This document shows positions 11,626 to 58,217 of a stretch of DNA of 64,000 nt, piece by piece. The stretch comes from Anaerobutyricum hallii. GTDB taxonomy: Bacteria > Bacillota > Clostridia > Lachnospirales > Lachnospiraceae. Within the stretch, counting starts at the first letter, position 1; each line of letters begins with the position of its first letter. The position numbers and the translations under genes were made by a program. The stretch spans positions 989,219 to 1,053,218 of the forward strand of contig NZ_LT907978.1 of assembly GCF_900209925.1 (NCBI RefSeq), written 5' to 3'. The notes beneath the pieces are model-generated. The model made no database searches. It had not been told where the DNA came from and saw only the letters and a program-made list of their open reading frames with translations.

Positions 11626-11776
11626 GTACATATAAAAATTATGTATAAAAAATGAAATTTCTCCCATACTGAAGAAAATATACTTTTGGAATCTTTCGTA
11701 AAATCAGACACAGAAAGATTAAGAGAGTATATGAGAAAGAAATTATTTTCACAATTCAGTAAGGGGGAATTTTTTT

Positions 11777-13081
11777 ATGAAAAAAGGTTTAAATAAAAAA
11801 GATTTTAGTATTGAAGAAGTACATGGTTTAGAAGTGCTTGATTCCAGGGGGAATCCAACGGTAGAAGTAACGATAAGATTAGGAAGTGGTGCAAGCGGGA
11901 AAGCGATTGTGCCTTCTGGAGCTTCTACAGGTCGTTTTGAGGCGGTGGAGCTTCGAGATGAGGAAAAACGATTTGGAGGAAAAGGAGTAGAGAGGGCAGT
12001 TACAAATGTAAACACAAGAATCAGTGATCGTTTATGCGGCTGCAATGCTTTAGAACAAAGAGAAATCGATCATATTTTAAAAGAAGCGGACGGTACAGAA
12101 AATAAAAGTAAATACGGTGCAAATGCTATTTTGGGAGTTTCTCTTGCAGTGGCCAGAGCAGCGGCCGAAGGCTTGGGGATTCCCCTTTACCGTTATGTTG
12201 GCGGCGTGAATGGTAAAGTACTGCCGGTTCCTATGATGAATGTCATTAATGGGGGGTGTCATGCGAAAAATTCAATTGACTTTCAAGAATTTATGATCAT
12301 GCCAGTTGGTGCAGAGTCTTTATCGGAAGGAATCCAGATGTGTGCAGAGATTTATCAACAGTTAAAGAAAACGTTAGCTGAAAAAGAGTATGCAACCGGT
12401 GTGGGCGATGAAGGTGGTTTTGCTCCGAATTTAAATTCTGCGGAAGAAGCGCTGGCATTATTGCAGGAAGCAACGCAGCTTGCCGGGTATGAGCCTGGAG
12501 TGGATATCTTTTTTGCAATGGATGCGGCAGCCTCCGAATTGTATGATGAAAATACCAGACGCTATTATTTTCCAGGGGAAAGTCAGATGAAAGAAAAGGA
12601 AATTTACAGAAATGCAGAAGAAATGGTGCAATATTATGAAGAACTTGTAGAAAAATTCCCTTTGATTTCTATTGAGGATGGATTGAGCGAGGAAGATTAT
12701 GCAGGGTGGAAAGTCCTTACCTATCGCCTTGGAGAAAAGGTACAGCTTGTTGGAGATGATCTTTTTGTAACAAATGTAAAACGGTTGTCAGAAGGAATTG
12801 AGAAGGGAATCGCAAATGCGATTTTAATAAAACCGAACCAGATCGGTACCTTATCTGAAACGCTTGATGCGATCTTACTGGCACAAAAAGCTGGTTATCG
12901 CACGATTATATCTCATCGGAGCGGGGATACAGAAGATACAACGATTGCGGATTTGGCAGTGGCGGTAAATGCAGGGCAGATCAAAACAGGCGCTCCATGC
13001 AGGGCAGAACGAACTGCAAAATATAATCAGCTTATGCGGATTGAAGAAGAACTTGGGAATTCTGGAAGTTATGGAAAGTGA
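11777..13081 (+). CDS. eno: Enolase, divergent
   Basis: Dehydrates 2-phosphoglycerate to phosphoenolpyruvate. At 434 residues it is full length with about eight extra N-terminal residues. Catalytic parts are present: PSGASTG loop, [37 protein letters not shown] (catalytic Lys) and SHRSG. Some near-invariant stretches differ: GGCHAKN where GGEHADN is usual, SGDTEDT for SGETED, and GAPCRAER for GAPSRSER. Codon use is much less biased than in pgk and tpiA. It stands alone with its own GGGGG site. It could be a second enolase with lower expression; activity is likely but not certain. Confidence 0.85.
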
Positions 13082-22907: not shown

Positions 22908-23059
22908 TGTAGATTGATGTAGACGAAAAAAGAAAAAACACCCTATCCCATCTGCTCTGTAGTCGCTGTGTTTAAAATGCTTATCCGCATCTTAAACATG
23001 CTCCGAAGCCGCATCTGGGATAGGGTGTTTTTTCTTTTTTCTGACTATCTAAATCTACA
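22908..23059 (+). repeat. Large foldback structure after smpB (also a strong bidirectional terminator)
   Basis: A 25-bp perfect stem joins 22926-22950 with 23016-23040; an outer 8-bp stem joins TGTAGATT (22908-22915) with AATCTACA (23052-23059). The loop holds a second hairpin (22970-22980 with 22987-22997). The GC-rich stem is followed by T-runs on both strands, so it should end transcription in either direction. Its size exceeds an ordinary terminator. Confidence 0.85.
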
Positions 23060-23209: not shown

Positions 23210-23386
23210 AATCCTGATTTCATCTGGCGCTAAAGGACAGAAAACCAGAAACTTTATATAGAATAAAATGTGATGTCGGAGCAAATAAAAATGCCGGTCA
23301 GGCATTTTCTATGCCGCGACTATCTTCACATTTTATTCTATATAAAGTTTCTGGTTTTCGTTTCTTTAATCCATCAAATCAGGATT
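23210..23386. repeat. 177-bp foldback element before pyrH block
   Basis: A 33-bp perfect inverted repeat joins 23241-23273 with 23326-23358. Outside it, AATCCTGATTT (23210-23220) pairs with AAATCAGGATT (23376-23386). Inside the 52-nt spacer AAAATGCC/GGCATTTT (23288-23295 with 23301-23308) forms another hairpin. No protein is encoded credibly. A MITE-like element or a structured RNA are both possible. Confidence 0.85.
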
Positions 23387-37165: not shown

Positions 37166-38704
37166 ATGCGTAAATTTTTGAAATTTCTATCACAACGTAT
37201 TGTTATTGTGACTTTTCTTATTTTTTTGCAGGTTTTATGGTTTGTTGGATTATTTCTTAAATTTACATCTTACAGTCAGTATATTACAGCTGCATTTAAA
37301 ATACTTAGCATTTTAGTCGTTATATATATAATGAACCGGAGTGATAATCCGTCAGTGAAACTGGTGTGGGTTATTGTCATATTGTTATTTCCACTCTTTG
37401 GCGGGCTTTTATATCTTACAATAGGTGGAAAACAACCAATATCTTATCTTCGTAAAAAGTTAGAACCCATGATAGAAGAGAGCGAGAGGCATTTAAAAAT
37501 TGACCCACAGATTGAAGAAGAATTGAAGCTTACAGACGGGAGTACAGCATCGCAGATTTATTATCTGGAACATCAGTCAGGCTTTCCAGCATATAAAGAT
37601 TCAAAAGTAGATTATTATCCTTCTGGAGAAGAATGTTTTCGTATTATGGTTGAGGAACTGAAGAAAGCGCAGAAGTATATTTATCTGGAATACTTTATTA
37701 TAGAAGAAGGGATTATGTGGAACACGATTCTTGATATTTTAGAGGAAAAAGTAAAGGCAGGAGTCGATGTAAGGGTTATGTATGATGATGTTGGATGTAT
37801 TTTTAATCTTCCATCACATTATGCAGATTCTCTCCGCAAAAAAGGAATCAAGTGTGTAGTTTTTAACAGATATATTCCTGTTTTCTCTACCGTATTTAAC
37901 AACAGAGATCATCGAAAAATTCTTGTAATTGATGGAAATGCTGCATTTACGGGTGGGATTAATTTTGCAGATGAATATATTAATGAAAAGCAGAGATTTG
38001 GTTACTGGAAAGATAATGGAGTGCGAATAACGGGAAAAGCGGTATACAGTATGATACAGATGTTTTTACAGATGTGGAATGCATTTGCACCGGAAAAAGA
38101 AAAGCTTGACTATGAGAAGTTTTCTTTGGAAGAGGTAGCGTTATTGCCGGAAAAAGAAAGGGGAATTGTTCTTCCCTACTCGGATCATCCCCTCGATTCA
38201 GAATTTGTAGGCGAGAGTGTATACATTAATCTGATCAACAGCGCACAGAAATATATTTATTTTTTCACACCGTATCTTATTATCGACAATGAAGTTGTTA
38301 CGGCTTTGATCCTAGCAGCAAAGCGTGGGGTTGATGTAAGGATTATTACACCGGGAATACCTGATAAGAAGATGATCTTCCTTGTAACACAGTCTTATTA
38401 TCCTCAGCTTGTAGAAGGAGGCGTAAAGATTTTTCAGTACAGACCGGGATTTGTTCATGCAAAGTGTGCTGTCTGTGATGATAAGATTGCAACAGTCGGA
38501 ACAATTAATCTTGATTACCGCAGCTTATATCTACATTTTGAAAATGGGCTTTTCTTATATGATTGTGATACAGTCATGGCTATTAAGCAGGACATATTAG
38601 ATACGTTAGAAGACTGTAACCACATTACAGAAGAAATGTGCAAAAAAAATATGTTTTTTTTATTGCTACAGGGAATTTTGCGGATTTTTGCTCCGTTATT
38701 ATAA
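37166..38704 (+). CDS. cls: Cardiolipin synthase (phospholipase D family)
   Basis: Joins two phosphatidylglycerol molecules to cardiolipin in the membrane. 512 residues. Two N-terminal membrane spans (about 8-55 and 65-90) precede two HKD sites: NRDHRKILVIDG (about 248) and FVHAKCAVCDDK (about 430), each His-x-Lys-x4-Asp. GAAGAGGAGAG precedes the ATG. A linear gap of 83 bases after addA holds no clear terminator. Confidence 0.94.
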   Translation: MRKFLKFLSQRIVIVTFLIFLQVLWFVGLFLKFTSYSQYITAAFKILSILVVIYIMNRSDNPSVKLVWVIVILLFPLFGGLLYLTIGGKQPISYLRKKLEPMIEESERHLKIDPQIEEELKLTDGSTASQIYYLEHQSGFPAYKDSKVDYYPSGEECFRIMVEELKKAQKYIYLEYFIIEEGIMWNTILDILEEKVKAGVDVRVMYDDVGCIFNLPSHYADSLRKKGIKCVVFNRYIPVFSTVFNNRDHRKILVIDGNAAFTGGINFADEYINEKQRFGYWKDNGVRITGKAVYSMIQMFLQMWNAFAPEKEKLDYEKFSLEEVALLPEKERGIVLPYSDHPLDSEFVGESVYINLINSAQKYIYFFTPYLIIDNEVVTALILAAKRGVDVRIITPGIPDKKMIFLVTQSYYPQLVEGGVKIFQYRPGFVHAKCAVCDDKIATVGTINLDYRSLYLHFENGLFLYDCDTVMAIKQDILDTLEDCNHITEEMCKKNMFFLLLQGILRIFAPLL

Positions 38705-38821
38705 AATGTACTCACAAAATCAAGCACATAAAGATTCCGAGAGCACATTAAAGATTCGATCATTAAAAACAGACGAAACTATGTGACGGAAACGATAGGA
38801 AAAGAAATCGAGGAAAAATAA

Positions 38822-55010: not shown

Positions 55011-57059
55011 ATGAGTCAGCAGGTATATATGAACAGGGAGTTATCCTGGTTAAAGTTTAATGAGAGAGTATTAGAAGAGGCAGAAAATAAAAAGGTGCCA
55101 TTATGTGAACGGCTGACGTTTGCTTCTATTTATCAGAGTAATTTGGATGAGTTTTTCCGAGTGAGAGTAGGATCTTTGATTGATCAGATGCTTCTTGGTG
55201 GAAAGATGCGTGATAATAAAACGAAAATGACGGCAAAAGAGCAGATTCAGGCAGTGCTTCATCAGGTAACAAAGTTAAATCGCAGAAAGGATGCGGTTTA
55301 TGAAACCATTATGGGACAGCTTGAGGAGCAGGGAGTCCGAATGGTTGACTTCCGAAAGATTTCAAAGAAAGAAAGCGAATATCTTGAAAGGTATTTTTTA
55401 AGAGAAATTGCGCCAGTGATTTCTCCAACGATTGTAGGAAAAAGACAGCCATTTCCTTTTTTGAAAAATAACGAAATTTATGCGGTTGTAGTATTACAGA
55501 CAAAGAGTGGAAAGGAAAAGCTTGGTATTATTCCATGCAGTAATACAGGATTTAAGAGATTAGTTGAATTACCAACAGCAGGAACTTATATGTTGGTAGA
55601 AGAATTGATCTTACATTATATTCCAAAAGTGTTTGAGCGATATAATATTAAAGCAAAGTCATTGATTCGTGTAACAAGAAATGCAGATATTGATGCAGAT
55701 GCATTATATGATGAAGATCTGGATTACAGGGATTTCATGACGGAATTAATCAAGAGAAGAAAGAAGCTTGCGCCGGTTCGTTTAGAACTCACAAGAGAGA
55801 TGGATGGCGAGATTGTAGATATTTTATGTGATTATTTAGAGCTGGATTCCGATCATGTATTTCAGGTACAGTCTCCGTTAGACCTGTCGTTTGTTTTTGA
55901 AATTCAGGATACACTAAGAAAAGTTCCGGAATTGTTTTACGAAAAAAGAATACCACAAAGATCAGCACAGTTTAAAGAAGATGAATCGATTTTTCCACAG
56001 CTTAAAGAAAAAGATAAATTACTTTCTTATCCTTATGAAAGTATGAAACCATTTCTTAATTTCTTAAGAGAAGCTGCAAATGATAAAGATGTTATTTCTA
56101 TAAAGATGACATTATATCGTGTTGCAAAGCATAGTAAAATTGTAGAGTATCTGATCGATGCAGCGGAAAATGGAAAAGAAGTACTTGTTCTTGTAGAACT
56201 GAAGGCGAGATTTGATGAGGAAAACAATATTGAATGGTCCAGAAGATTAGAGGATGCCGGTTGTCGTGTGATCTATGGATTAGACGGTTACAAAGTACAT
56301 TCAAAGTTATGTCTTGTGACAAGAAAGTCCGAGGGTCAGGTAGAATATTATACACAGATCGGAACAGGAAATTATAATGAAAAAACAGCAAGATTATATA
56401 CAGATTTATCTCTTATGACAGCCAATGTAGAGATTGGAGTTGAAGCAGCAAAAGTATTCCAGGCACTTTCCATGGAAGAGACAGTGGATAATGTAGAGCA
56501 TCTGCTTGTTGCGCCAAGATGTCTTCAGAACAGAATTTTATCAATGATCGATGAGGAAATATCCTATGCTAAAGAAGGAAAGGAAGCATATATCGGTTTG
56601 AAAATGAATTCACTTACCGATAAGAAGATTATTGATAAGCTGATTGAAGCTTCACAGGCAGGAGTAAAGATTGATATGGTAATTCGTGGAATCTGCTGTC
56701 TGATTCCGGGGGTAAAAGGAAAAACAGAGAATATTCAGGTAAGAAGTATTGTTGGCAGATTTCTGGAACATTCTCGTATCTATATTTTTGGAACGCAGGA
56801 AAGAGAAAAAATTTATATTGCATCAGCAGATTTTATGACGAGAAATACATTAAGAAGAGTGGAAGTTGCAGCACCGATTTATGATAAAGATTTAAAGATG
56901 CAGTTAGAAGAAATGTTTATCACAATGCTTAGCGATAACCAAAAAGCAAGACAAGAAGATAGCCATGGAAATTATGAGATTGTGGCAGTGCAGGAAACAC
57001 CGTTAAATTCACAGGAATTTTTCTATGATCAGGCATATATGAATGCACAGAAAATGTAA
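55011..57059 (+). CDS. ppk1: Polyphosphate kinase 1
   Basis: Makes inorganic polyphosphate from ATP and reverses the reaction. 682 residues. N-terminal MNRELSWLKFNERVLEEA; catalytic phospho-His in YKVHSKLCLVTR (His430) and the second conserved His in HSRIYIFG (His587). TGGAGG lies before the ATG. No ppx gene is seen next to it. Confidence 0.97.
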   Translation: MSQQVYMNRELSWLKFNERVLEEAENKKVPLCERLTFASIYQSNLDEFFRVRVGSLIDQMLLGGKMRDNKTKMTAKEQIQAVLHQVTKLNRRKDAVYETIMGQLEEQGVRMVDFRKISKKESEYLERYFLREIAPVISPTIVGKRQPFPFLKNNEIYAVVVLQTKSGKEKLGIIPCSNTGFKRLVELPTAGTYMLVEELILHYIPKVFERYNIKAKSLIRVTRNADIDADALYDEDLDYRDFMTELIKRRKKLAPVRLELTREMDGEIVDILCDYLELDSDHVFQVQSPLDLSFVFEIQDTLRKVPELFYEKRIPQRSAQFKEDESIFPQLKEKDKLLSYPYESMKPFLNFLREAANDKDVISIKMTLYRVAKHSKIVEYLIDAAENGKEVLVLVELKARFDEENNIEWSRRLEDAGCRVIYGLDGYKVHSKLCLVTRKSEGQVEYYTQIGTGNYNEKTARLYTDLSLMTANVEIGVEAAKVFQALSMEETVDNVEHLLVAPRCLQNRILSMIDEEISYAKEGKEAYIGLKMNSLTDKKIIDKLIEASQAGVKIDMVIRGICCLIPGVKGKTENIQVRSIVGRFLEHSRIYIFGTQEREKIYIASADFMTRNTLRRVEVAAPIYDKDLKMQLEEMFITMLSDNQKARQEDSHGNYEIVAVQETPLNSQEFFYDQAYMNAQKM

Positions 57060-57141
57060 GTCTTACGATCGTAATTTTGTGTGTTGCTTATTTTAAAAAG
57101 AAAAAGATGTTGTAAAAAAAGAAATAAAAAAAGAAACATTT

Positions 57142-57245
57142 CCCTTCAAAGACATATTAAGAAATAGGACAGATTTTTATTTTAAAATAAAAAATAATAA
57201 AATAAAAATCTGCAAGAGATGCTTAATAAAGATGTCTTTGGAGGG
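57142..57245 (+). promoter_or_regulatory. Long hairpin that encloses the ribosome-binding site of the ZIP gene
   Basis: CCCTTCAAAGACAT (57142-57155) pairs with ATGTCTTTGGAGGG (57232-57245) with one G-U; then ATTAAG/CTTAAT; then a perfect 15-bp stem 57170-57184 with 57198-57212. The whole GGAGGG site (57240-57245) is in the stem. The terminal loop is 13 nt (57185-57197). Confidence 0.75.
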
Positions 57246-57250
57246 ATTTT

Positions 57251-58003
57251 ATGCTTATAGAGATAATAAAAGGTCTCAGTGTTCCTTTTATAGGAACAAC
57301 ATTAGGTGCATTTTGTGTATTTTTTTTGAAAAATGAACTTGGCAAGGGGATGCAGAAAGCACTTACTGGATTTGCAGCGGGAGTAATGATAGCAGCATCA
57401 ATATGGAGTTTGTTGCTTCCGGCAATTGAACAGGGGGCTTCACTTGGAGTGTGGCGTTTTATTCCGGCAGCAATTGGATTTTGGATTGGAATTTTATTTT
57501 TAATGGCAATTGATTATTTTGCTCCACCGGAATGCATAGAAGGAGAACAAAAAGATAATCTGCTGTTGGCGGTGACCCTCCACAATATTCCGGAGGGAAT
57601 GGCTGTTGGAGTGATCTATGCGGGATTATTGAATCATGCAGATCATATTACAGCAATGGGAGCGTTTTCTCTTGCATTAGGAATTGCGATTCAGAATTTC
57701 CCGGAAGGGGCGATTATTTCAATGCCGCTTTGTACAAAAGGAATGTCAAAAAGAAAAGCATTCATATATGGAGTCCTTTCCGGGGCAGTAGAACCGGTGG
57801 CATCGTTGTTTACTGTATGGGCAGCCAGTCTGGTTGTTCCGGTTCTTCCGTATTTTTTAAGCTTTGCAGCGGGAGCGATGATCTATGTCGTTGTGGAGGA
57901 GCTTGTTCCGAAAATGTCAGTTGGAGAAACAACAAATATCGGCATTTTTATGTTTGCGATCGGGTTTAGTCTTATGATGATTTTAGATGTTGCGTTAGGA
58001 TAA
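57251..58003 (+). CDS. ZIP-family metal transporter
   Basis: Membrane carrier for divalent metal such as zinc or iron, 250 residues with about eight spans. Metal-site motifs are HNIPEGMAVGVIY (span 4) and QNFPEGAIISMPL (span 5), of the GufA/ZupT kind, and VVVEELVPKM. The central loop is short and lacks a His-rich stretch. Only the ribosome site is special: it lies within the hairpin 57142-57245. Confidence 0.93.
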   Translation: MLIEIIKGLSVPFIGTTLGAFCVFFLKNELGKGMQKALTGFAAGVMIAASIWSLLLPAIEQGASLGVWRFIPAAIGFWIGILFLMAIDYFAPPECIEGEQKDNLLLAVTLHNIPEGMAVGVIYAGLLNHADHITAMGAFSLALGIAIQNFPEGAIISMPLCTKGMSKRKAFIYGVLSGAVEPVASLFTVWAASLVVPVLPYFLSFAAGAMIYVVVEELVPKMSVGETTNIGIFMFAIGFSLMMILDVALG

Positions 58004-58085
58004 CTGATGTATAGATTGCAGATTGTTTTGGAATTTATGCTTGCTTTTTTTGAATAAATAGCGTACTATATTGGTAAATTCATAC

Positions 58086-58173
58086 ACGGGGAGCTTGCAG
58101 GAGCAGGCTGAGAGTAAGCTAAGGTGCTTAGACCCATAACCTGATTTGGATAATGCCAACGTAGGGATAGCGT
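58086..58173 (+). promoter_or_regulatory. TPP riboswitch (THI element)
   Basis: Contains the conserved CTGAGA (58108-58114 region), ACCCATAACCTGA, GGATAATGCCA and CGTAGGGA blocks in the right order. A terminator hairpin follows 9 bases later. It senses thiamine pyrophosphate and controls thiE-HAD-thiD-thiC. Confidence 0.95.
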
Positions 58174-58182
58174 AGATAGATT

Positions 58183-58217
58183 CGCATATATACCGTAATT
58201 GGTGTATATGCGTTTTT
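58183..58217 (+). terminator. Terminator of the TPP riboswitch
   Basis: CGCATATATACC (58183-58194) pairs with GGTGTATATGCG (58201-58212), one G-U, followed by five T. It should form when thiamine pyrophosphate is bound. Confidence 0.9.

Follow-up and report, generated by a model that had tools for sequence, protein, structure and literature searches.

The 64,000-nucleotide stretch of DNA analysed here (the window), from a gut bacterium of the genus Anaerobutyricum, carries a gene for polyphosphate kinase (ppk1) and, downstream in the same direction, a gene for a ZIP-family metal transporter, with a three-part hairpin at 57141-57246 between them whose helices count 14, 7 and 15 pairs. The initial annotation had named both genes from the letters; ppk1 does lie upstream of the hairpin, and a profile search places the downstream open reading frame in the ZIP family (PF02535, 4.8e-17); its match to the ZupT model is weak. 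In the interval between the two genes the terminator scan made no call. The features of the locus are:

55011 to 57059, + strand: ppk1 (polyphosphate kinase), co-directional with the ZIP gene and 191 nt upstream of its start
57141 to 57154, + strand: outer helix, left arm, the anti-Shine-Dalgarno (anti-SD) side, TCCCTTCAAAGACA
57155 to 57161, + strand: middle helix, left arm, TATTAAG
57170 to 57184, + strand: inner AT-rich helix, left arm, CAGATTTTTATTTTA, 15 bp and perfect
57198 to 57212, + strand: inner helix, right arm, TAAAATAAAAATCTG
57222 to 57228, + strand: middle helix, right arm, CTTAATA, followed by the bulge AAGA at 57229-57232
57233 to 57246, + strand: outer helix, right arm, TGTCTTTGGAGGGA, with the Shine-Dalgarno sequence GGAGGG at 57240-57245
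57251 to 58003, + strand: ZIP-family metal transporter gene, 250 aa

Two further features flank this arrangement. A 12-bp perfect palindrome, TTACGATCGTAA, follows directly on the ppk1 stop (57063-57074) and occurs once in the window and the first 400 kb of our genome sample (~1.16 Mb of stretches, or 1.22 Mb scored with the window included). A TPP riboswitch at 58077-58185, between the ZIP gene and the next downstream genes, was the sole hit above gathering in an Rfam search of the window.

RNA folding shows that a very stable hairpin buries the whole GGAGGG ribosome site of the ZIP gene. The predicted energy, -39.2 kcal/mol, compares with a mean of -15.7 for shuffled sequences (z -8.2; 0 of 200 shuffles), and structure prediction recovers the hairpin described in the initial annotation, including the pairing of GGAGGG in the right arm with the left arm (57141-57154 with 57233-57246). 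Of the two further stems that the initial annotation described, the perfect 15-pair stem stands, while the middle stem has 7 pairs and not the 6 it was given. Sequestration of the site, as also proposed there, is seen in a mean SD openness of 0.0005, the second lowest among 398 gene starts sampled in a stricter set with a median of 0.47. When ungapped stems over the ribosome site are scored, the ZIP hairpin reaches 35; of 1314 start sites in 1.22 Mb only 6 reach at least 34, where shuffles would give 0.4. The leaders of other ZIP genes (~110) have closed sites at about the frequency seen in genes generally.

The dependence of this closure on the left arm suggests what the hairpin might do. In computed folds of successively shorter RNAs, those that start at or after 57148 have a ribosome site that is 0.38-0.47 open, compared with 0.001 or less in longer RNAs; removal of the left arm frees the site. 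The simplest reading of this difference is a block on ppk1 read-through that is relieved in RNA without the left arm. The hairpin would then strongly block translation of any RNA in which both arms are present, above all of read-through from ppk1, where the ZIP ribosome site would be closed, and only RNA lacking the left arm would yield ZIP. We favour this reading tentatively and put it at somewhat less than an even chance; that such a block acts in cells, and the manner in which it is relieved, are points that we infer. Release could occur along two routes, either through RNA started inside the hairpin, as in gene e of phage T4, or through cutting of the hairpin by a double-strand ribonuclease, as in adhE of E. 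coli.

Both precedents resemble the ZIP leader in layout. In T4 gene e a hairpin buries the SD in a long read-through RNA, and the 5' strand is missing from the late transcripts (PMC3014915). The likeness, which extends to T4 soc, 49 and I-TevI, is that the SD is buried with the 5' strand and free without it, and the same was computed for ZIP, where the leader is closed with its left arm and open without. The T4 genes differ in having promoters that give RNA without the 5' strand, and none is visible at ZIP: the best sigma-70 candidate inside the hairpin, TTTATT-16-TAAAAT, scores 3.7, below 98% of shuffles, and a consensus promoter scan inside and upstream of the leader found none that convinces. 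In adhE the ribosome site is occluded in mRNA structure and is freed by RNase III (PMC5371410). The occlusion is shared with ZIP; RNase III cleavage is a feature of adhE, in an organism unrelated to Anaerobutyricum. A third relative in design is the fold-back of IS10-type elements. There, an inverted repeat over the ribosome site stops expression of the transposase from outside transcripts. Several genes that we take, by eye, to belong to insertion sequences (L188:9764 and L180:399, for example) rank among those in the genome sample whose SD is paired in the strongest stems, and they show such an inverted repeat over the ribosome site. The ZIP gene differs in that it is no transposase and has no mobile element recognised around it. 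Should the block work, it would be a chromosomal, non-phage case of a gene that lies beside a housekeeping gene and has its translation protected against read-through.

The initial annotation proposed that the hairpin opens by heat, metal or a protein, and the computations speak against the first two. Folding gives the ribosome site a predicted openness of 0.05% at 37 C, rising to 0.1% at 45 C and 1% at 70 C, and puts the cost of opening it at ~16 kcal/mol; so flat a temperature response, together with this cost, weighs against both a thermometer and a ligand switch that opens easily. Pairing of the SD within an AU-rich leader is what an RNA thermometer would share with ZIP, but in these computations the leader does not open across the physiological temperature range, and we consider this reading very improbable. 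Opening by metal meets the same energetic cost and has no aptamer to draw on. The view that no known metal riboswitch lies here agrees with the Rfam search, whose best hit over the ZIP leader is sub-threshold and on the opposite strand, and a search of the leader for Zur-like boxes found none.

A broader possibility is a conditional switch for which metal, some protein or a small RNA would be the opening trigger. It would suit such a switch that the gene encodes a metal transporter and that the leader is without the GTTAGN6CTAAC-like palindrome found upstream of the paralogue in the same genome and of several other ZIP genes. The missing Rfam aptamer, the very high opening cost and an orthologue that has no hairpin count against it, and we regard it as improbable. 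Slightly more improbable still is a translational switch particular to this species, with a metal-responsive protein, a small RNA or a nuclease opening the hairpin and so turning ZIP on. The GTTAGN6CTAAC-like palindromes themselves are present in 7 of 110 ZIP leaders, compared with 0.7 in shuffles. They are operator-like and lie 44-119 nt upstream of the ZIP genes (leaders L033, L034, L007, L013, L018, L025 and L037), and we presume them to resemble operators of the DtxR/MntR kind.

Comparison with relatives bears on both the translation block and its main competitor. By its ZIP gene the closest named relative is A. hallii DSM 3353 (L038), at 79% amino-acid identity. The end of its ZIP leader, GTCTCGGAGGGATTTTATG, is a clear homologue of GTCTTTGGAGGGATTTTATG in the window, and the ribosome-binding-site (RBS) tail GGAGGGATTTTATG is kept, but the leader has neither the hairpin nor a homologous left arm; its site is open (0.78) and its upstream gene is a different one. 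When 24 genomes of the genus were searched with the ZIP leader, the RBS region of this orthologue was the only substantial match, and among the relatives we found neither a homologous leader that carries the hairpin nor the same ppk1-ZIP gene pair. A search of viral contigs confirmed no relative of the ZIP gene. The ppk1 gene of A. hallii DSM 3353 is 93% identical to that of the window and diverges at its last codons; as the loss of similarity coincides with the ppk1 stop, a rearrangement has taken place at the junction. The 3' end of that gene (the end of L123) runs into a dispersed palindromic repeat where the contig ends, and this repeat belongs to the family of L174:6005-6098, found at 14 places in 1.22 Mb.

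These observations give weight to a reading in which the hairpin is a palindrome peculiar to this lineage, lying where ppk1 and ZIP adjoin and without a regulatory role, with ZIP poorly expressed or the fold irrelevant in cells. An orthologue that shares the RBS tail without the hairpin, a rearranged junction, a genome full of dispersed palindromic repeats and ZIP leaders that are generally not unusually closed are all in keeping with it, and we treat it as a serious rival, itself unlikely but nearly as likely as the block. It accounts less readily for a ribosome site inside a perfect 14-bp arm, which is rare at gene starts, and for a hairpin that is single-copy, unlike the repeat families. 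By GC-corrected fold energy the hairpin ranks fourth in the window on both strands, behind folds at 22921, 23241 and 52831. The first two, long palindromic repeats at 22915-23050 and 23225-23380 between smpB-like and pyrH-like genes, belong to dispersed families present at 63 and 35 places in 1.22 Mb; the third is single-copy in the sample and sits at the 3' end of what we take, by eye, to be xpt, a phosphoribosyltransferase-like gene. The ZIP hairpin occurs at one place only, and a repeat or MITE origin was rejected on that ground. A 26-nt match to its right arm at L180:781-806 falls inside a transposase-like open frame and was taken as chance.

That no sigma-70 promoter was found inside the hairpin and that A. 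hallii DSM 3353 does not conserve it both stand against the translation block. With the nearest sequenced relative lacking the hairpin and nothing pointing to a heat or metal sensor, we see here most probably a translation block confined to one species, and not a switch that has been conserved; the case illustrates that a strong fold is no evidence of a sensor when conservation is missing. The genome also holds a second ZIP gene with an ordinary leader, so the copy in the window may be dispensable.

The hairpin could also be the transcription terminator of ppk1, with a 3' arm that serves in addition as ribosome site for ZIP. No other strong hairpin follows ppk1, and the leaders of an enolase-like and a ydcZ-like gene, described below, are laid out alike, with T6-T7 tracts immediately ahead of the ATG. 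Against this, an intrinsic terminator has a GC-rich stem followed by a T-run, and here the tail read by eye is merely ATTTTATG; the site was also left uncalled by the terminator scan. As that scan admits no loop longer than 8 nt, the weak tail counts for more than the missing call. No other start for the ZIP mRNA is visible, which also counts against termination. We hold a terminator to be unlikely, in line with the view of the initial annotation that this is not an ordinary one.

The shape of the ZIP hairpin has a better-supported example within the window. At the enolase-like gene at 11777, the leader (11659-11776) folds into a hairpin of -36.5 kcal/mol in which the ribosome site is paired, and like the ZIP leader it has the SD in the 3' arm, then a T-rich stretch and the ATG; the two sequences are unalike, and the enolase hairpin is conserved in several members of the genus whereas that of ZIP is not. 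Homologues in the genus (L159-L164) keep CTCC..ATACTGAA / TTCAGTA..GGAGG, followed by a T-tract and the ATG. Among six sequences two pairs are changed on both sides, one of them also broken in one sequence, and these doubly changed pairs lend modest support to conservation of the hairpin. An Rfam search of the enolase leader gave no match. For a sensor, this conserved leader is a better target than the ZIP hairpin. The enolase loop in the window copy has sequence related to a dispersed palindromic repeat that is absent from that place in A. hallii DSM 3353. A short palindromic repeat with core TCGGAATCTTTTTGTGCTTGATTTTGTGAG lies at 38696-38760, with related sequence in 11676-11735, and has 28 near copies in its own genome, 14 in A. 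hallii DSM 3353 and 0 in 22 other genomes of the genus. Elsewhere in the genome sample, at L181:6452 on the minus strand, an 18-bp arm pairs the ribosome site of a putative YdcZ-like (DMT) transporter gene, with a T-tract before the ATG.
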